The notes beneath the pieces are model-generated. The model was not told the DNA's origin, made no database searches, and saw nothing but the letters and a program-made list of their open reading frames with translations. Below are positions 2,995-31,641 of a stretch of DNA of 42,532 nucleotides, piece by piece; position 1 is the first letter of the stretch; every line of letters begins with the position of its first letter. The position numbers and the translations under genes are program-made. The DNA is from a bacterium (GTDB lineage: Bacteria > Zixibacteria > MSB-5A5 > GN15 > FEB-12). Location of the stretch: the NCBI GenBank assembly GCA_030605565.1, contig JAUWIB010000013.1, positions 1 through 42,532 of the forward strand. Reading direction: 5' to 3'.

Positions 2995-3023
2995 TTGACA
3001 GGGCTAAAACGCCCAAGTATATT
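2995..3023 (+). promoter_or_regulatory. Strong promoter for the two-TM gene at 3100
   Basis: TTGACA (2995-3000) and TATATT (3018-3023) are 17 bp apart, close to the sigma-70 consensus. The spacer contains the small inverted repeat GGGC-TAAAAC-GCCC (3001-3014), a possible operator. The upstream gap from 2929 starts with a run of eight Gs after the preceding stop and holds no terminator that I can see. Confidence 0.8.
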
Positions 3024-13245: not shown

Positions 13246-13826
13246 GTAAGTCCTTTAGTCGATAATGGCGGGTTCGAGGACGGCATCTACTTTTCTGTTA
13301 GCCATTGGTTGCTCCTTTACTGATGACTGTGCCATCGCTTTTTGGGGGTTATTGATACTGTTCTTGTGCGTGGCGTGGGGATCCTGGTCGGTAGCGGAGA
13401 TAACACACCCGTGAATCCGCTCTCTATTGGGAACTTTGAAAAAGAACTCCGTGCATAGTGTACGTCTTCGTGCACCAAAAAGTCCGCGTGACCGTCATTG
13501 CGAGGCGTCCGCCATCGGCGGATGCTGCGGCAATCTCATTGTCCACGTGATCGGGTGGCCCAGATGCTCGTCCTGGTTTCAAGTCTTCAACCGTAGGTCG
13601 AAACCCCTGCGGTTTCGACACCGGCGTAGCCGGTTCTTTGGTACCCCGTCTAAAGCGAAGCGACGGGTGGGATCTTGTGTAAGCATACTATTCAGGGCTC
13701 ACCCTTTCGGCGGGCTACGGGATCAGAAACCCGGGGCAAGCCCACGGGCCACCCAGCGACTCTGTTCCCCGCGTAGGGTCGGGGCTTGTCTCCGACCATT
13801 CGCACGGGGCGACACAAGGCCGCCCC
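13246..13826. other. Gene-free, repeat-dense region
   Basis: No credible gene is seen here. 13493-13540 is a dispersed palindromic repeat of the GTCATTGCGAGG...GCGGCAATCTC type. 13593-13620 is a truncated MITE end (GTAGGTCGAAACCCC followed by a hairpin). 13770-13797 matches, in inverse orientation, the repeats inside the gene at 26954-29605, and 13806-13830 holds a related ACACAAGGCCGCCCC piece. On the minus strand, 13305-13255 could encode a 16-residue peptide behind a strong AAAGGAG site, but it overlaps a repeat that recurs near 25027, so I do not call it a gene. Confidence 0.6.
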
Positions 13827-14483
13827 CTACGCGTTGAGGAGCCTCGACCGGAGCCAGGCGTGCAGGAAGCCGAGGACGTAGCATACCAACCCGACAATCA
13901 GCAGCCAGTACATGTACGGTTGGGGCATCTGGAAATTGCAGACGGCGTTGGTGTCGTGCATAAATGAATACAGGATGTCGCCCGTACCGAGAAGCGATAA
14001 CGTCACCAAAACCACCGTCGGTCGGAACGTCTTGCCGCGTGCATACAGTCTCGTGATGGCCAGGCCGAACAGGACCATCAACAGCGCGATCAATATCGGC
14101 GCGATCACCGGCGCCAGCCAGGGACGTGGGATCAAGAAGAGTACATCCCACTCGACCAGCGACGACGGCCAGTCGATCGTCACCCACAACCAGACATAAT
14201 AGAAGATGTCCCAGACACCGAAGATGATCAGGAAATACCCGAACCGCTCCCAGAAGCGCCGTCCGGCCAGCGCGGCTACCGACATTATCATGAGCAGTGA
14301 AGCTGCCTCGCGAGCGATCTCGACGCACAGGATATCGCCGGGAATGATTCTCAGCGGCAGCGAGAAGCCTTCCGGATAGATCAACTCGCGCAGGTACACC
14401 ACCACCGCCGCTTCGAAATAGGCCATGCAGAGACCGAAGAGAACGACGGATGTCAGACGATAGCCGTAGGGAATCCGGTTCAC
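13827..14483 (-). CDS. Multi-pass membrane protein, unknown function
   Basis: I choose GTG 14483 because GAGGA lies 4-5 bp upstream on the minus strand; a TTG at 14540 would add 19 residues but lacks a ribosome site. The 218-residue product has about six TM helices and recognisable islands FEAAVVVYLRELIYPEGF and WDIFYYVWLW, typical of a conserved uncharacterised bacterial membrane protein. There are no catalytic motifs. It is flanked on both sides by dispersed repeats and stands alone on its strand. Confidence 0.7.
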   Translation of the reverse strand: MNRIPYGYRLTSVVLFGLCMAYFEAAVVVYLRELIYPEGFSLPLRIIPGDILCVEIAREAASLLMIMSVAALAGRRFWERFGYFLIIFGVWDIFYYVWLWVTIDWPSSLVEWDVLFLIPRPWLAPVIAPILIALLMVLFGLAITRLYARGKTFRPTVVLVTLSLLGTGDILYSFMHDTNAVCNFQMPQPYMYWLLIVGLVCYVLGFLHAWLRSRLLNA

Positions 14484-14575: not shown

Positions 14576-14603
14576 GGGGCAGACGAGGGCGTCTGCCGCC
14601 CAC
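14576..14603. repeat. Short palindromic repeat, identical to one inside the S16 gene
   Basis: This 28-bp sequence, with the palindrome GGCAGAC-GAGGGC-GTCTGCC, is identical to 28875-28902. Here it is intergenic; there it is part of a coding sequence. Confidence 0.8.
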
Positions 14604-24346: not shown

Positions 24347-24817
24347 ATGAACCTTGACAAAACAGTAAGAGGTCACGACCTGTTTCAGGCGCTGAGCGTC
24401 GAGCAGACGGACCGGATCAGTGGGTTTTCATTGGTAAGAAAATACGAGGAGGGTGAATCGATTTTCAACCTCGGCGCTGCCGGTACCCATGTCTACATGC
24501 TGCTGAAGGGCTCGGTCAATCTTCGGCTTCCCGCCGATCCTTCGGATTTCAGCATCGTTGTCTCCAAGATCGAAAAGGGAGAACTGTTTGGACTCTCACC
24601 GTTGCTCGATTCTCCCAAGTACACCGCCACGGCCCAATGCACTGAGTATACCGAGGTGCTTGCTGTCGAGGCCAAGCCATTTCGGGAGTTACTGGTGAAC
24701 AGCCACCCGGTGGGGTTTGATATCATGAGCCGTGTAGCCCGGATCTACTTCAGTCGATACATCAACGTTCTGAAGGAACTCCAGGGAGTGGTGAGCCATA
24801 TCGCCCTGATCCGCTGA
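24347..24817 (+). CDS. Stand-alone cyclic-nucleotide-binding-domain protein
   Basis: AAGGAGG sits 6-7 bp before the ATG. The 156-residue protein is essentially one Crp-like beta-roll domain: GHDLFQALSVEQTDRI, YEEGESIFNLGAAGTHVYML (residues about 31-50), LLKGSVNLRL, IEKGELFGLSPLLDSPKYTATA (phosphate-binding-cassette region, about 83-104) and ECTEVLAV-like strands. The C-terminal helix ends at 156 with no helix-turn-helix, so it is not a DNA-binding Crp homologue. The classical PBC Arg/Ser pair is not obvious, so the ligand may not be cAMP. It probably acts as a sensor partner of another protein. Confidence 0.8.
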   Translation: MNLDKTVRGHDLFQALSVEQTDRISGFSLVRKYEEGESIFNLGAAGTHVYMLLKGSVNLRLPADPSDFSIVVSKIEKGELFGLSPLLDSPKYTATAQCTEYTEVLAVEAKPFRELLVNSHPVGFDIMSRVARIYFSRYINVLKELQGVVSHIALIR

Positions 24818-25051: not shown

Positions 25052-26872
25052 CTACTTCAGAAGCATCATCTTCTTCGTCTCGATGAACTCCGGCGTCTCG
25101 ATCCGGTAGAAATACACACCACTGGCGACGGCACTGCCATCCCATTCACAAGCATGCACACCCGCTCCGTAGAACCCGTCGGCGACCGTTGTGACCCTCT
25201 GCCCCATCACGTTGTAAACTTCAAGCGACACATGACTCGCAACCGGCAGACTGAACGATATCGTCGTCACCGGGTTGAACGGGTTGGGGTAGTTCTGGCT
25301 GAGAACGTACTCACTCGGCAATGAACCACCCTTGGCAGCTTCGCCGATTGTCGCTGCGTAGGTATGGTACCCGTCTGTCGCAACAACCGCTGAGACCACA
25401 TCGTACTCACCTGCGATCTGAATAACCCGGTTCTCACCGGCAGGGATAACGTTGGCGCCATCAAGATCGAGAATACCGATCTTGACCCGCTCGCCATCCT
25501 GCCCGAACACCATGTCGAGCGCATCACCCACCAGCTTCACCGGCGCAGCACCATCGGGACCGGCAAGCTGAAGGTCTAAACCACGCAGGTCAAACGGCGC
25601 CGCGAGTGAGATAGTCGTGAGGCCGTCCTTGAACACGGAACCGACCACTATGTCTGCATTCACGGCGACTCTTGCCAATACCCCGTTCGAGATACACCCA
25701 CATTCCGGAACCGGCCCGCCCAGGAACATGTAGTTGATGAGGTAGACCAGATCAGCTATATCCGGCCCCCCACAGTCGCCGTTGACGTCCACTGCATCCG
25801 TCACGCACGGCGCCGGACCGTCCCTGAACATATAATCAATTAAAGCAACCAAATCAGCAATGTCGACTGAACCGTCATTACCAAAATCACCGGGAGTGAA
25901 GCCAAGGATTTCAGTTGAGTCGCGACCGAAATCGAAGCCGGGATTGACAGCTTGGCCGAAAGCATCGGAAAACTTGAGTTGCCTTGAGGGGTCGTCTGAG
26001 AGAGTGGTATCCCAGTGGATGTAGGAACTAGTCAGGCATTCCGACTGGGTGTGGAAAAGCAAATAGGCCACGGTAGTAGTGCCGGGTTCGATGACATACC
26101 CTTGGAAATTGGCCAGGTTAATGAGGGCATAGTTCTCTGCCACCGTGTCGAAGACACAGTCCCACTCTTCAGTGATAAGACCTTCTCTCGACCAGCCGCA
26201 GACCTCGACACCGTCTGGTATATCAATCGGTATAGTAGCACCTGCAATCGCGTCTCTCGCCTGAATCTGCACCGGCTGCATCACACACTCGTCATCGCAT
26301 GGGAGGACGGCGACGGAGGGGATGAGGAGGGAATTGGATGGGAGTATCGACAGAGAAACGTCATCAAGTGCGAAAACGGCGTTTGCCGAAGTGGCGTATC
26401 CATGTAGCTGGAAATCAATCTCTGCGTTGCCACCAGTAGCAAACACTATTGTGTCCACCGAGTGTTGATAATCTACTGAAGGAGGGAACACTGCAACCCG
26501 AACCGCGCTTGTGTCAACGTGAATTATAGCATCTAGTATTGTCAATGAAGAACTGTAAGTATCATGAGTATCGACTTCACGGAACCAAAAGGAAAGGACA
26601 TAGGGTATTCCAGCCTGGACCGAAATCCCATAACTTCCTGTCTTTATAGAGGCATCGTAGTACCCGGCTCCGGCCGGAAATGAGAAGATGCAACATGAGG
26701 TGCCAGAGTGTGGATTGGTCGTGGTGGTACTCCATCCACTGGCATACTGATATGGATTCCACGAAGCCAGACCGCTTTCAAAACCACCGTTCTGCACCAG
26801 ATTGCTTGCGTCAATTGATGGCGACAACGCCAACAAGACCGACAGACTCAAGACAGTGAGGATCAGACGCAT
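25052..26872 (-). CDS. Secreted protein with dockerin-like pair and C-terminal FlgD/T9SS-like sorting domain
   Basis: AAAGGAGT precedes ATG 26872, and a signal peptide follows (LILTVLSLSVLLALSPSIDA). Residues about 25-185 look like a jelly-roll carbohydrate-binding module (LVQNGGFESGLASWNP, with later FALDDVSL). A beta domain follows. A dockerin-like pair comes next (VDIADLVALIDYMFRDGPAP, PDIADLVYLINYMFLGGPVP, about residues 350-410). After a cohesin-like or Ig-like stretch, the last 85 residues begin LSQNYPNPFNPVTTISFSLP and end in ETKKMMLLK, the pattern of C-terminal sorting or FlgD_ig domains in FCB secreted proteins. It lies 81 bp downstream of the S16 gene on the same strand, so read-through is possible. 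Confidence 0.82.
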   Translation of the reverse strand: MRLILTVLSLSVLLALSPSIDASNLVQNGGFESGLASWNPYQYASGWSTTTTNPHSGTSCCIFSFPAGAGYYDASIKTGSYGISVQAGIPYVLSFWFREVDTHDTYSSSLTILDAIIHVDTSAVRVAVFPPSVDYQHSVDTIVFATGGNAEIDFQLHGYATSANAVFALDDVSLSILPSNSLLIPSVAVLPCDDECVMQPVQIQARDAIAGATIPIDIPDGVEVCGWSREGLITEEWDCVFDTVAENYALINLANFQGYVIEPGTTTVAYLLFHTQSECLTSSYIHWDTTLSDDPSRQLKFSDAFGQAVNPGFDFGRDSTEILGFTPGDFGNDGSVDIADLVALIDYMFRDGPAPCVTDAVDVNGDCGGPDIADLVYLINYMFLGGPVPECGCISNGVLARVAVNADIVVGSVFKDGLTTISLAAPFDLRGLDLQLAGPDGAAPVKLVGDALDMVFGQDGERVKIGILDLDGANVIPAGENRVIQIAGEYDVVSAVVATDGYHTYAATIGEAAKGGSLPSEYVLSQNYPNPFNPVTTISFSLPVASHVSLEVYNVMGQRVTTVADGFYGAGVHACEWDGSAVASGVYFYRIETPEFIETKKMMLLK

Positions 26873-26953
26873 AAGAACTCCTTTGGTTAATTGTTTACAT
26901 ACTGTTTGTAGCCCCGAAATGTTGAGAATGTAGAGAAAATCCTTCAAGTGAGG

Positions 26954-29605
26954 CTAATTCGATTGCTCGTACTCAGAAGTCTCAGCTTCGGCGGTGCGAA
27001 GATCGCCCTCGGTCACCCAGCCGGAGTCAGTCCAATAGATGACGGCATTGAGAAGATTCTCTTGATAATCAGACCAAATGATCTGAGGTAGCTTCCCCGC
27101 ATCGACTAGAGAATCCCGTAGAGGTCTAAAACGATCATCGCATGATGCGCTGACAGCGCGTAGATTTGTATCCAAGTAATAAGCGACACCGGCCCAATCA
27201 CATTTCTCTTTACTTCGCACCTCCAAAACATCAAGCCGGAACGATCCATCATGCTGTCGCACAATCTCTTTTGGGTAATTGTACTTCTCGTGCACCTCTA
27301 CATTTAGATCGGTTCTTGGGAATAGAACATAGTGTGGTTGATTCCCATGCGTCAGGCCTTCGAGATCGTATCCCCTGTCCTTATAGGGCGGCCCAACTCC
27401 AAAACTCCCACATGGTTTGATGGTGAAAAAGCAAGTGCACTTCATCCGATTGTTATAACCCAGGAAGTATAGAGTACTATCGCCATCTGTAGACAAACAG
27501 CCCCCCTCCGCTCCTGCAAAACCTGGATTGATATACCAGCCAAGCAGATCTCCATACGCACTCCAGAACTTCAGATACAGACGCGCCGGGTTTTCTCGGT
27601 ACACTTCGGTTAATAGGATGGGTCCGTCTCTTAGTTCTATACGTGTAATGTGCTTGACTCCACACGCCATTACGTCACCGGTCGCATACTCACCTGGGAT
27701 ATCACAGTCCCTCTGATACAGGAGTTTTCCTCTGTAGTTGTACACGAAAAGCTCTGCATTGCTTTCACACAGTTCACTGCTGACAGCCATGGGTAAGAAA
27801 GCAACTTCGTTCGCACTGTCTTTGTCCAAGTCGCCAACATCCCACAATGATGCAGAGGTGATTGCCTCACACTCAAATTCTACATCCCACACCGGCACCG
27901 AGTCTTTATTCAATGCCTCAAACCCCCGTTCGGTCAGTCGAACATACTGAGGATTCCAGTCGAATCCCACCCACGCCTTCGGGTAGATGATGCAGATGAG
28001 GGCGTAGAGAAGCAAAAGTAGCAGCGGCACCTGGACTTTTGTGGCGCGGGAGTAGCGGGCGGCTTTCTTGGTTATGAATGCGCCCAGGCAGACTTTTTCG
28101 GAGCGGATGATGTTGCGGTCGTTGAGCACGTCATCGAGGTGAGCAGCAGACACAAGGCGCAGCCTCCGGCGGGGATATTGTTTGTTGAGGCGTTTGACGG
28201 TGTCGCGTGCGGTGGCGAGGTTGGCCTCCGGGAGGACAGCATAGCGGACGTGCGAGAAGAAAGCGCGCTCGATCTTGGCCGCGATGGTGTCATTGTTCAC
28301 AGGTGTGATGCGACCGTCGGCTGTGATGCTGCCGGTCACGGCGATGTCGGAGGCGATAAACCGCTCCTGACGCATCACCTCCGGTTTCAACAATTGTGTA
28401 AACGCGACCAGCGAAACGGCCAGTCCTATCGAGTCACCGGTGAAGGTCCGGTTGCTCCCGTCGATTGAAAGATACGCCCGATACGATCCCTGAGCGCGTT
28501 TTGCAAAGCCGGCACTGCGCAACCCTGTCCGCGCCGCCTTGAGCGAGTCGTAGGCCACGCCAATAAACGGATCGTCCGGCGTTTTGACCTGATTATCAAA
28601 CGCCACCATGTCACCCGATGGTGGGAGACCAGCCCCCACCCTACGCGAGTTCTGCAAATCGTTTTTGCCCCCAACCACCCTACGCGGCGTTTGCGAAGAA
28701 TGTCTGACAATTGAATCGTCGGTATCGCGTAGCGGCGTGCCAGATGCGTCATCACGAGTCTCGCGGAGCGGCGGGCCTTGTGTCCGCCGGTCACCGGTTG
28801 GTGGGAGACAAGCCCCCACCCTACGCGGCATTCCTGTGTCCGGAACATGTCCACGTGTGCCGACTTTCTCCACAGGGGCAGACGAGGGCGTCTGCCGCCC
28901 ACGAGGCAGGCCGATCAAGTCGGGCAGCAAGCTGCTCTCTTTTTTCGCGGCAACCTGCTCCACAGTGCCGCGCAGCAACCGCATGCGACCGGTGGCGGCG
29001 TTGCCCTTTCCATCCTTATCGACGAACAGACACCAAACCCGGTTATGCTCAACCGCCAAGGCGGCTTCTTCCCACTGCGCAAGAATGCCTTGCAACAGCG
29101 TACCCAACTCAGGATAATCGCGGCGGTACTTGTCATAGATTGTCCGCAGCGTATCGAGGGGCGACAGGCCGCGCAATTCGGAATCGGCAGGCAGAGCGAG
29201 GTCATTAACACCTCCCAGCTCCGCACAGAGCGATAGCGCCTCGTCGTACGCGCCCACATAGAAAAGCAGCGTCGCTACGCGAAGGCTCGCGCCCAGTGCG
29301 GCTATCAATAGGCTCGTCGACGCAGCATCGATACCGCTCACGTCAACCAGGTCATTCAGCACGCGGCGAACCTGGTTCAGGGAGTCTATCGTGAGGTCGG
29401 ACAGGGCGTCGGCCTGCACCAGGCCGATCACAAGCGAACAGTAGTCGTTTAGATAGCTCTCATAGGCGGACTCTCCGGCCATCGGCGCGAGTCGCTCCCA
29501 GAAACGCACAAGCAAAAGCAACCGCAGGTCCGCCGCGGGCAGTCGCGACAGTTCGCTTTTCAGCTTCTCGAAATCGCGGGCGAACTCAAGGGGTGATGGT
29601 TTCAT
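26954..29605 (-). CDS. Membrane-anchored Lon/S16-like protease domain protein with repeat-derived insert
   Basis: The 883-residue protein has four parts. Residues 1-230 are helical, with no known motif. Residues about 234-335 derive from dispersed DNA repeats. Residues about 345-500 resemble the Lon proteolytic domain: TGDSIGLAVSLVAF with candidate nucleophile Ser392, IAVTGSITADGRITPV, Lys444 in IAAKIERAF, then VRYAVLPEANLATARDTV. There is no AAA+ ATPase. After basic residues (KKAARYSRATK) comes a TM helix at about 525-541, and about 340 residues outside the membrane contain VCBS-like WDVGDLDKDSANEVAFLP. The ATG overlaps the stop of the zinc-finger gene as ATGA (29602-29605), so translation is coupled. 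I infer a membrane protease coupling external state to the upstream regulators. Substrate and activity are unknown. Confidence 0.75.
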   Translation of the reverse strand: MKPSPLEFARDFEKLKSELSRLPAADLRLLLLVRFWERLAPMAGESAYESYLNDYCSLVIGLVQADALSDLTIDSLNQVRRVLNDLVDVSGIDAASTSLLIAALGASLRVATLLFYVGAYDEALSLCAELGGVNDLALPADSELRGLSPLDTLRTIYDKYRRDYPELGTLLQGILAQWEEAALAVEHNRVWCLFVDKDGKGNAATGRMRLLRGTVEQVAAKKESSLLPDLIGLPRGRQTPSSAPVEKVGTRGHVPDTGMPRRVGACLPPTGDRRTQGPPLRETRDDASGTPLRDTDDSIVRHSSQTPRRVVGGKNDLQNSRRVGAGLPPSGDMVAFDNQVKTPDDPFIGVAYDSLKAARTGLRSAGFAKRAQGSYRAYLSIDGSNRTFTGDSIGLAVSLVAFTQLLKPEVMRQERFIASDIAVTGSITADGRITPVNNDTIAAKIERAFFSHVRYAVLPEANLATARDTVKRLNKQYPRRRLRLVSAAHLDDVLNDRNIIRSEKVCLGAFITKKAARYSRATKVQVPLLLLLLYALICIIYPKAWVGFDWNPQYVRLTERGFEALNKDSVPVWDVEFECEAITSASLWDVGDLDKDSANEVAFLPMAVSSELCESNAELFVYNYRGKLLYQRDCDIPGEYATGDVMACGVKHITRIELRDGPILLTEVYRENPARLYLKFWSAYGDLLGWYINPGFAGAEGGCLSTDGDSTLYFLGYNNRMKCTCFFTIKPCGSFGVGPPYKDRGYDLEGLTHGNQPHYVLFPRTDLNVEVHEKYNYPKEIVRQHDGSFRLDVLEVRSKEKCDWAGVAYYLDTNLRAVSASCDDRFRPLRDSLVDAGKLPQIIWSDYQENLLNAVIYWTDSGWVTEGDLRTAEAETSEYEQSN
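28620..28902. repeat. Dispersed repeats lying inside a coding sequence
   Basis: 28620-28647 and 28800-28827 are a 28-bp pair differing at one base (GGTGGGAGAC[C/A]AGCCCCCACC...). Each is a hairpin and both match 13770-13797 in inverse orientation. 28771-28790 resembles the ACACAAGGCCGCCCC piece near 13810. 28875-28902 is identical to 14576-14603. On the minus strand they are translated as RRVGAGLPPSGD, RRVGACLPPTGD and LPRGRQTPSSAP. Together they fill residues about 234-335 of the S16-like protein without breaking its frame. Confidence 0.85.
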
Positions 29606-30492
29606 TTGGTGAACAACCTGATATTGACGGTGCTGTCAGGATCGTCGATTGCGAATGTAGCCGTTTTATCGTCTCCGATCTGCGCATGACGGCTGGCTTG
29701 CGGTGTGCTGACAACGATCTTGACATCACCAAAGTCTTCGCGGCCATCCAGTTCGAGCACGCGCAACGTGATCTGTTTGCCCTCGGTTTTGCGCTCAAAA
29801 GTGACCTCAACCCTGTCCTGCCGGTCCGTCTCCAGGGTTACCTGCCGCGAGTATTCTGTTTTGTTGGGATCATACACCAACGGTTCGAGGTCGAAGACGG
29901 CGTCGGGCATTTTGAGTTGCCATTTGACCTCGTCGGTGATCTCCAGCCGCTCGTCCCCCAACTCAGCGCGGCCGTGGTCATCGGTAACGAATTCCCGATC
30001 CAATTGCGGCGCCTGGATCAACACGTGCGAGACGAGACTCATGTCATCACTGATAAGCTGCACGTAGTTGTCATCCGGCTGAGGACCGCGCATTATTCGC
30101 AGGACGATTTCCGGGTCCTCTGAATACAACGTAAGAACCTGATCGGAGGAAGAGCCGGCTTGCCGGTCGCCGTCGGCGGCCAGCGGCAGTTCGTGCTCGT
30201 CCGCACCCGGTCTGAGAACCTGCAAGGGGATCACCCGCCCGGTCAGCGCCGCGTGGTACAAGCGATCAGCCAGCGCCCGTGCTTCCAGCGGTAACTCTTC
30301 CTGTTCTGCGACTCTCAGGGATTCGTACAGCAAGTAGTAATCATCACAGAACTCGCGGCAAAACTCGCAGACCTCCAAATGTTGACGTATTTGCTCAATC
30401 CCGGCCTGCTCCAGCCGTTTTTCCACAAACGCGATCAGCGTCTCGCGCGGTGGGTGCAGTGAATCTCGTTTATACTCTTCCACATTAACCAA
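29602..30492 (-). CDS. Cytoplasmic zinc-finger (ZAS/zf-HC2-like) putative anti-sigma protein
   Basis: The 296-residue frame starts at TTG 30492 (a GTG three codons later is an alternative); neither has a clear ribosome site. Near residue 40, HLEVCEFCREFC gives the H-x3-C-x2-C zinc-binding pattern of anti-sigma factors, preceded by a helix (ETLIAFVEKRLEQAGIEQI). Residues about 85-296 are acidic and beta-rich, with no TM helix, unlike classical membrane anti-sigma factors. The C-terminal part (VTLETDRQDRVEVTFERKTEGKQ) looks Ig-like or like a carboxypeptidase-regulatory fold. It sits between the sigma-like gene (20 bp upstream) and the S16 gene (ATGA overlap). I infer that it binds the sigma-like protein and may be the substrate or partner of the protease. 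Confidence 0.65.
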   Translation of the reverse strand: MVNVEEYKRDSLHPPRETLIAFVEKRLEQAGIEQIRQHLEVCEFCREFCDDYYLLYESLRVAEQEELPLEARALADRLYHAALTGRVIPLQVLRPGADEHELPLAADGDRQAGSSSDQVLTLYSEDPEIVLRIMRGPQPDDNYVQLISDDMSLVSHVLIQAPQLDREFVTDDHGRAELGDERLEITDEVKWQLKMPDAVFDLEPLVYDPNKTEYSRQVTLETDRQDRVEVTFERKTEGKQITLRVLELDGREDFGDVKIVVSTPQASRHAQIGDDKTATFAIDDPDSTVNIRLFTK

Positions 30493-30512
30493 CTAGTAAC
30501 GAAGTTACTTCT

Positions 30513-31571
30513 TTATAGATACTTTCTCAACCGTCTCTCAAAATCATCTTTCGCCTTGTGGATAACAGTTTCGAAGATATGCTTGAAATCCGTCAGGTAC
30601 CGATCATGTTCCGACTCCGGCATCACCTCACGAAAATACTCAGGCAGCGAATCGGTACCCGATGAATGAGCAAGATCGATCAGGAACTGCTCGCAGGCGC
30701 CAAGCAGCCGTTGCGCATAATCTTCGGTAAGGCGGTCATTGGTCACGAACTTCGCAAGGACTATCTCTCGCACCCAGCGCAGGGTTTCGGTTCGAGCTTT
30801 GGTGATCGCCCTGATGAACAGGCCATGTTCTGCTCCCGGCGGGTGAGCCGGCGCGAGACCTTCGACATCAACATATTTCGTATTGACAATAACCACCGCC
30901 TGAATAAGCCGAAAAGTCTCGATGAAGTTCTGAACGGACGCGACTCGATTCAAGGCCTCGAAAATGGCGCGACACCATCGCGTGCGGTTGAGGCTTCGGA
31001 GATAGCACTCTTCAACCAGCGACAAGAGTTCCTCAAATGAGATCGGGGGACAGTCGACACGCATCGTCCGCTCGTACTTCAAAGCTCCAACATAACGCTC
31101 ATTGCCACCACCCGGCGAAAACGCGTGGTAGTCCGATCCGGCGAGGATGTCTTTGAAGCGTCTTTTGAGGTTGGCTTTGGCCGGGTCTGCCTCGCCGGCA
31201 ACATGACTCAACTGCTGGCGGATCTTTGTGAAAAGCCAGGGGCGGAACAGATCGTACAGGTGCGCCGGGTCCTCGTCCTCGAACGTGGTAATACCCTGCG
31301 TACGAAAGTAATCGAACAGTCCTCCACAGGTTCGGCTCTTGACAGGCGCCAGGACGCGGCTGAGGATATCGACAGCAAGATCATCCAGAGGGCTGCGCCC
31401 GGCAAACTGGTCGAGTGGGAGTCGCCGCCCCCTGGCATTCTGCGACCGCAGCCAGGCTTTCGTGTGGCGCCAGCAGAGTTCAAAGAAAGCGTCAAACCGT
31501 CGGCGATTCGCCGGACAACACAAGAACTCTTTCAGTATTGTAGGATTCGATTTACCGCTGTCGTCCTTCAT
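30513..31571 (-). CDS. Divergent sigma-factor-like regulator (first gene of the S16 operon)
   Basis: The frame is open from ATG 31610, but the promoter at 31613-31641 would start transcription at about that point, so I take ATG 31571 (AGGG upstream), giving 352 residues. The N-terminal third (RRRFDAFFELCWRHTKAWLRSQ, then PLDDLAVDILSRVLAP) has the size and pattern of sigma-70 region 2. The rest is helical and ends in a strongly basic helix (HKAKDDFERRLRKYL). I do not see an unambiguous region 4. The assignment leans on the next gene being an anti-sigma-like zinc finger, so treat it as a hypothesis. It could instead be an unrelated DNA-binding regulator. Confidence 0.45.
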   Translation of the reverse strand: MKDDSGKSNPTILKEFLCCPANRRRFDAFFELCWRHTKAWLRSQNARGRRLPLDQFAGRSPLDDLAVDILSRVLAPVKSRTCGGLFDYFRTQGITTFEDEDPAHLYDLFRPWLFTKIRQQLSHVAGEADPAKANLKRRFKDILAGSDYHAFSPGGGNERYVGALKYERTMRVDCPPISFEELLSLVEECYLRSLNRTRWCRAIFEALNRVASVQNFIETFRLIQAVVIVNTKYVDVEGLAPAHPPGAEHGLFIRAITKARTETLRWVREIVLAKFVTNDRLTEDYAQRLLGACEQFLIDLAHSSGTDSLPEYFREVMPESEHDRYLTDFKHIFETVIHKAKDDFERRLRKYL

Positions 31572-31612
31572 CAAACGCGCCCTGCAATCCTGGCTTGTCG
31601 GACAGTTCATAC

Positions 31613-31641
31613 AGAATAAGCAGGGAAGGCTCTGCTGTCAA
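31613..31641 (-). promoter_or_regulatory. Promoter of the sigma-like / zinc-finger / S16 operon
   Basis: On the minus strand, TTGACA (31641-31636) and TATTCT (31618-31613) are separated by exactly 17 bp. The predicted transcript start near 31605 rules out ATG 31610 as the translation start. It separates this operon from sixA, which ends at 31663. Confidence 0.75.

Follow-up and report, generated by a model that had tools for sequence, protein, structure and literature searches.

A conserved gene trio of Zixibacteria with a membrane-spanning Lon/S16 protease, an anti-sigma-like protein and a putative sigma-like factor: a candidate outside-in transcription switch

The 42,532 nucleotides of contig JAUWIB010000013.1 (assembly GCA_030605565.1; host, Zixibacteria), referred to in their whole length as the window, carry three minus-strand open reading frames (ORFs) between 26954 and 31610 that are here called the trio: gene 1 (putative sigma-like), gene 2 (zinc-finger) and gene 3 (protease). 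Gene 4 encodes a secreted protein. It is fairly probable that the trio is a transcription switch operating from the outside of the cell inward, with gene 4 as its output. Residue numbers of genes 2 and 3 are those of the window copy, and the parts of the locus are as follows.

31613-31641, minus strand: housekeeping-type promoter of the trio, TTGACA-N17-TATTCT (pattern search)
30513-31610, minus strand: gene 1, putative sigma-like transcription factor, 365 amino acids as ORF, likely start ATG 31571 (conserved family, AlphaFold2 model)
29602-30492, minus strand: gene 2, soluble zinc-finger anti-sigma-like protein, 296 amino acids (zf-HC2 and PDB profile matches)
26954-29605, minus strand: gene 3, membrane-spanning Lon/S16 protease, 883 amino acids (profile and fold searches, alignment)
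26907-26936, minus strand: degenerate window copy of the promoter-like element described below, TCTCTACATT-N15-CTACA, upstream of gene 4
25052-26872, minus strand: gene 4, secreted protein with signal peptide, CBM_4_9-like module, dockerin and type IX secretion tail

Conservation and expression of the trio

Whole genomes of Zixibacteria were searched with genes 3 and 2 and GTDB contigs were scanned once; this yielded 50 distinct loci, all in Zixibacteria except one in a genome of another phylum, Abyssobacteria (L045). The complete trio, with order and strand kept, is present in 41 of the 50, and the majority of the remaining nine are interrupted by contig borders. The trio proteins are about 30–45% identical between most loci. 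Genomes G014, G081 and G115 have more than one copy; the genome of the window has one, and a copy is also found in G002, a relative within the same genus. We note that genes for ECF-type (extracytoplasmic function) sigma factors and (putative) anti-sigma factors, with TPR or TPR-CHAT genes, adjoin the Lon trio at L030:9906-13001, L033:1-3078, L035:10543-11500 and L047:685-4914, and that the neighbour set of L047, which includes a caspase-like protease, parallels the trio in its three-gene design.

The initial annotation, made from the sequence of the window, had described three genes behind one near-consensus promoter, and the ORF coordinates bear this out: genes 1 and 2 are 20 bp apart and genes 2 and 3 share an ATGA overlap (a distance of -4 bp). 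The linkage of the three genes across genomes, which it had put forward as a check, has likewise held. There are two sites of the pattern TTGACA-N17-TATNNT in the window, for an expectation of 0.00 from shuffled sequence (the site besides that of the trio, TTGACA-N17-TATATT, is at 2995-3023 on the plus strand), and a TTGAC/TATAtt promoter lies upstream of gene 1 in many relatives as well. The -10 hexamer of the trio promoter overlaps the annotated gene 1 ATG (31610), so the true start is likely the second in-frame ATG at 31571, and the methionine encoded there aligns with the starts of most gene 1 relatives.

A membrane-spanning S16 protease

Gene 3 has the following parts, all on the minus strand.

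28106-29047: S16 proteolytic domain, residues ~187-500, interrupted by the repeat insertion (AlphaFold2 model, Foldseek)
28616-28942: in-frame dispersed-repeat insertion in the S16 domain, residues 222-330 (from comparison with relatives that lack it)
28430-28432: catalytic Ser392, in the motif T-G-D-S-[IL]-G (Ser in 30 of 30 relatives)
28274-28276: catalytic Lys444 (Lys in 30 of 30 relatives)
27980-28036: transmembrane helix, residues 524-542, N-terminus inside (hydropathy and positive-inside charge)
26957-27946: outer beta-rich FG-GAP-like (propeller-type) domain, residues 554-883 (profiles, model)

When the AlphaFold2 model is searched against the PDB with Foldseek, the best 50 matches are all Lon proteases (E ~1e-6), the TM-score to isolated Lon domains reaches 0.71, and Lon_C is matched in 5 of 16 family members. 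The Ser392/Lys444 pattern from which a Lon proteolytic domain had been proposed is therefore beyond chance, and the family is predicted to be one of S16 peptidases by its modelled proteolytic fold and its Ser-Lys dyad. No AAA+ ATPase domain is found in any member examined, as had been said of the window copy, so that the family does not fall under LonA or LonB, and a SAVED domain is matched neither in the window protein nor in its relatives. One correction is needed within the S16 region: the Lon fold stands, but residues ~222-330 are a repeat insertion that the relatives lack. In the model these 109 residues are disordered, with a predicted local distance difference test score (pLDDT) of ~30; the repeat is GC-rich, contains GTGGGAGACCAGCCCCCACCCTACGC, and is found also at 13769-13833, at 14576-14603 and at many sites in G000.

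The transmembrane helix, already noticed in the initial annotation, has positive charge on its N-terminal side in all 30 relatives, which makes the S16 domain cytoplasmic and the FG-GAP-like C-terminal domain external. The outer domain had been called VCBS-like, and this fits the FG-GAP_3 matches in 6 of 16 members; in profile searches it also matches FG-GAP-like stretches of PL11 lyases, and the model gives it beta strands.

A soluble anti-sigma-like protein

Gene 2 carries the zinc-associated anti-sigma (ZAS) signature on the same strand.

30358-30456, minus strand: ZAS zinc-binding motif, H13-x24-H38-x3-C42-x2-C45 (alignment)

The motif is present in 38 of 39 gene 2 proteins, with H38, C42 and C45 invariant. 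It corresponds to the ZAS (class I anti-sigma) pattern, H/C-x(20-32)-H-x3-C-x2-C in an N-terminal helical domain, and marks the family at sequence level as predicted anti-sigma factors. The family zf-HC2 is matched in 8 of 15 members, the window member by itself falling under the Pfam threshold, and the top three PDB profile matches of gene 2 are the anti-sigma factors RsiW, 3hug_B and DdvA. Gene 2 has no transmembrane helix, and its earlier description as a cytoplasmic zinc-finger protein agrees with all of this. The region past the zinc finger is conserved in the family, and there no Pfam family is matched in more than one member.

The ZAS protein might itself be the sensor, of redox state or zinc, with the S16 protease serving a separate purpose, for instance quality control, or degrading the sigma-like protein to end the response. 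Cytoplasmic redox sensing is indeed frequent among soluble ZAS anti-sigma factors (PMC7406223), and silencing of ECF sigma factors by proteolysis is known or proposed (PMC8999054); however, the outer domain and membrane topology of the protease are kept in all members, and in nearly all loci the protease gene separates the output promoter from the ZAS gene, so we consider this arrangement quite unlikely.

A private promoter-like element and the gene behind it

The interval between genes 3 and 4 contains an element, TTTCYRCAAA-N15-CTATT (in one concrete form TTTCTACAAA-N15-CTATT), whose spacing is fixed. It scores at least 13/15 in 21 of 30 loci at a single spacing, alternative spacings accounting for 0-3 loci, and it aligns without internal gaps in 18 loci, where the C-T-A of the second box is invariant. 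A scan of 132 whole genomes for the exact element (with CTAT) gave ten sites, and nine of these lie immediately after gene 3. The Abyssobacteria locus L045 has a perfect copy, though its gene 1 protein is just 29% identical to that of the window.

Gene 1 proteins fall into subfamilies A, which includes the window, and B, and the first box of the element follows this division: it reads CTACA or CCACA in 18 of the 19 loci of subfamily A, and C[TCG]GCA in all nine of subfamily B. At the -35-like base this amounts to A in 18/19 and G in 9/9 (Fisher p ~1e-6, uncorrected for ancestry). The two boxes, CTACA-N17-CTATT, have the geometry of a sigma-70-type -35/-10 pair. The location of the element and its subfamily-dependent first box fit a private promoter read by the gene 1 product.

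That the element might instead be read by an unrelated factor, or be a variant of a housekeeping promoter with gene 4 merely co-located, is worth raising given that sigma-like activity of gene 1 is putative. The exact element is, however, essentially limited to trio loci, its spacing is fixed, its first box varies with the gene 1 subfamily, and near-matches elsewhere in the genomes are at control level; together these make such an origin very unlikely. The near-matches are mostly inside genes, and a wider regulon was rejected on these grounds. A sequence that resembles the element, at G000:C123:41012, falls within an unrelated coding ORF and was also rejected, as was an RNA structure, the element showing no conserved pairs and no Rfam match. 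Upstream of gene 1 no private element is seen, the promoters there being of the housekeeping type, and autoregulation of the trio through its own element was therefore rejected.

Two further sites deserve mention. At L159:1501 (G019:C18:26770) a B-type-like element, TTTCTGCATTTTCGGGTTTTGGGGACTAT, lies 212 bp upstream of a putative lipoprotein gene, which is a possible second target outside the trio. At L087 (G099:C152:6745-6774) a second near-copy, TTTCTATAAA-N15-CTATT, lies within the 3' end of gene 1.

In 26 of 29 loci the next gene after gene 3, in the same orientation, encodes a secreted protein, compared with 20% of control genes from the same loci. In the window the likely start of this gene is the ATG at 26872, preceded by a good ribosome-binding site (AAAGGAG). 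The N-terminal modules of gene 4 proteins vary (FG-GAP, PD40 or YNCE propellers, CBM), and a dockerin and type IX secretion tail are frequent; C-terminal tails are common to loci while the N-terminal modules swap (for example L021, L025, L027 and L031). The initial annotation had suggested the protein encoded at 25052 as a possible target. It is probably a target, but a transcriptional one: nothing suggests that it is a substrate of the S16 domain, which is on the cytoplasmic side of the membrane, and that role was rejected. Beside the secreted gene, the plus-strand ORF at 24347-24817 reads, on sequence alone, as a cyclic-nucleotide-binding (Crp-type) regulator.

Gene 1, a putative sigma-like factor

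The gene 1 family (n=37) is conserved and all-helical. Searches of Pfam and NCBIfam, covering 16 + 15 members, and PDB profile searches returned no sigma-factor relative, nor a sequence relative of any other kind, and regions 2 and 4 of sigma-70 and ECF factors are not recognisable by profile in the family. PF04542 detects 12 sigma factors in the genome of the window, and gene 1 is not among them. Homology to sigma factors by sequence was thus rejected, the Pfam, NCBIfam, PDB profile and hhalign comparisons all being negative. The AlphaFold2 model (mean pLDDT 81, predicted TM-score 0.46) is all-helical with a helix-turn-helix-like C-terminal end, and its helices follow an order that, to our eye, recalls sigma-2 and sigma-4. 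Among its top 50 structure matches sigma-S, SigA and AlgU come up repeatedly, none of them significant, and a fold search against viral proteins gave nothing significant. The first gene had been called sigma-like by inference in the initial annotation, and the sequence searches do not uphold that as homology; the term is used here as a hypothesis that context supports.

Gene 1 could accordingly be something other than a sigma factor within the same circuit, a new type of DNA-binding activator or another partner of a ZAS protein, in which case the element would be an operator in front of a promoter. The failure to match sigma factors by sequence or fold speaks for this, and three things speak against it: the sigma-70-type -35/-10 spacing of CTACA-N17-CTATT, the place of gene 1 in the sigma position with a ZAS gene behind it, and the recurrence of sigma factors in its structure-match list. 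On balance we regard a non-sigma gene 1 as unlikely.

The proposed switch

In the switch that we favour, gene 3 would be a protease that crosses the inner membrane once, its ATP-independent S16 domain lying inside the cell and its FG-GAP-like domain exposed to the periplasm or the exterior. In the resting state the gene 1 product would be kept bound by the soluble ZAS protein. A ligand or state sensed outside would activate the S16 domain, which would cut the gene 2 protein and free the gene 1 protein, and the latter would then guide RNA polymerase to the TTTCYRCAAA-N15-CTATT element, whose firing would yield one secreted, surface-sorted protein, that of gene 4. Since the trio is transcribed from an ordinary promoter, the sensor would always be present and gene 4 would be its dedicated output. 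The full proposition, namely one-step transmembrane signalling by a membrane S16 protease with an outer propeller-type sensor and a soluble anti-sigma factor, a new sigma family that is unrecognisable by sequence, a private regulon of a single gene and co-evolution of promoter and sigma factor, is a possibility to which we give somewhat less than an even chance.

The circuit sketched in the initial annotation, from an outer signal through S16 cleavage to release of the sigma-like factor, is partly supported. Linkage and order of the genes, the S16 fold and dyad, the topology, the ZAS motif and the element with its private location are observed; cleavage of gene 2, sigma activity of gene 1, its binding to the element and the nature of the signal are points that we infer. 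Several points weigh against the proposed switch. No sigma factor is matched significantly by gene 1, whether in sequence or in fold, and hhalign scores it against the ECF sigma factors of its own genome about as high as reversed and shuffled controls. The A/G co-variation is uncorrected for phylogeny, and the B-type site of L033 was assigned by eye. The window's own copy of the element scores 10/15 and, together with the 109-residue insertion in its S16 domain, this means that the window copy may be diverging. Finally, two loci are truly broken: L093 has no protease, and G033 has its protease gene in two pieces. In the latter (G033:C1; L028, L040) the N-terminal part is found beside genes 1 and 2, at 361 kb, and the C-terminal part at 976 kb, the result of either rearrangement or misassembly.

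Relation to known systems

In the textbook route of sigma activation from the outside to the inside, regulated intramembrane proteolysis, it is the anti-sigma factor that crosses the membrane, and its cleavage proceeds in steps. The RseA/RsiW type (DegS/RseP; RasP) resembles the proposed switch in that an outer signal leads to loss of the anti-sigma factor, and the ZAS motif is common to RsiW and gene 2; there, however, a membrane-spanning anti-sigma factor receives several cuts, whereas in the trio a soluble anti-sigma factor faces a membrane-spanning protease.

The closest logic, an ATP-independent Lon-type protease with an anti-sigma and a sigma factor, is that of CRISPR CalpL/CalpT/CalpS, where CalpS is an ECF sigma factor and in which a Lon-domain protease cleaves the anti-sigma factor upon binding of a cyclic nucleotide to its SAVED domain (PMC11417357). 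CalpT, the 33-kDa anti-sigma substrate, is similar in size to gene 2, at ~300 amino acids (PMC11417357). This precedent qualifies the earlier remark that such a protease is not usually used for regulated proteolysis, the trigger there being a cyclic nucleotide. CalpL differs in being triggered by cyclic tetra-adenylate (cA4) through a C-terminal SAVED domain and in its type III CRISPR loci; gene 3 instead has a transmembrane helix followed by an extracytoplasmic FG-GAP-like domain, and the output is one secreted protein. Lacking a SAVED domain, the trio lies outside CalpL/T/S. PADLOC gave no match for the three trio proteins (CRISPR arrays and cas genes nearby were not searched directly), and membership in a defence system was rejected on that result.

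In Csx29/Csx30/CASP-sigma (type III-E, TPR-CHAT) a protease likewise cuts the inhibitor of a sigma factor (PMC10028731), but the protease is caspase-like, the trigger RNA-guided and the sigma factor a recognisable ECF factor. YlbL, the membrane PDZ-Lon protein of B. subtilis, is also a single-transmembrane S16 protease with a Ser/Lys dyad and no AAA+ domain (PMC6051672); its S16 domain is, however, thought to be extracellular, it has a PDZ domain, its substrate is the division inhibitor YneA, and no sigma circuit is involved. In SigI/RsgI of Clostridium thermocellum an outer sensor acts on surface (dockerin) proteins by way of an alternative sigma factor (PMC4711584, PMC12203970), but the sensor is within the anti-sigma factor, there is no S16 protease and several genes are targets. 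No description of the trio was found in the open literature, most subscription journals being beyond the search.

Implications

If the proposed switch is true, the transmembrane receptor would be the protease itself, acting on a soluble anti-sigma factor in a single step, which would constitute a new one-step route from an external signal to a gene. It would extend the Lon/anti-sigma logic of CRISPR CalpL/T/S from immunity to surface signalling and bring in a sigma-like family invisible to profile searches. With a predicted regulon of one gene and its element, the entire chain would be directly testable in a heterologous reporter.

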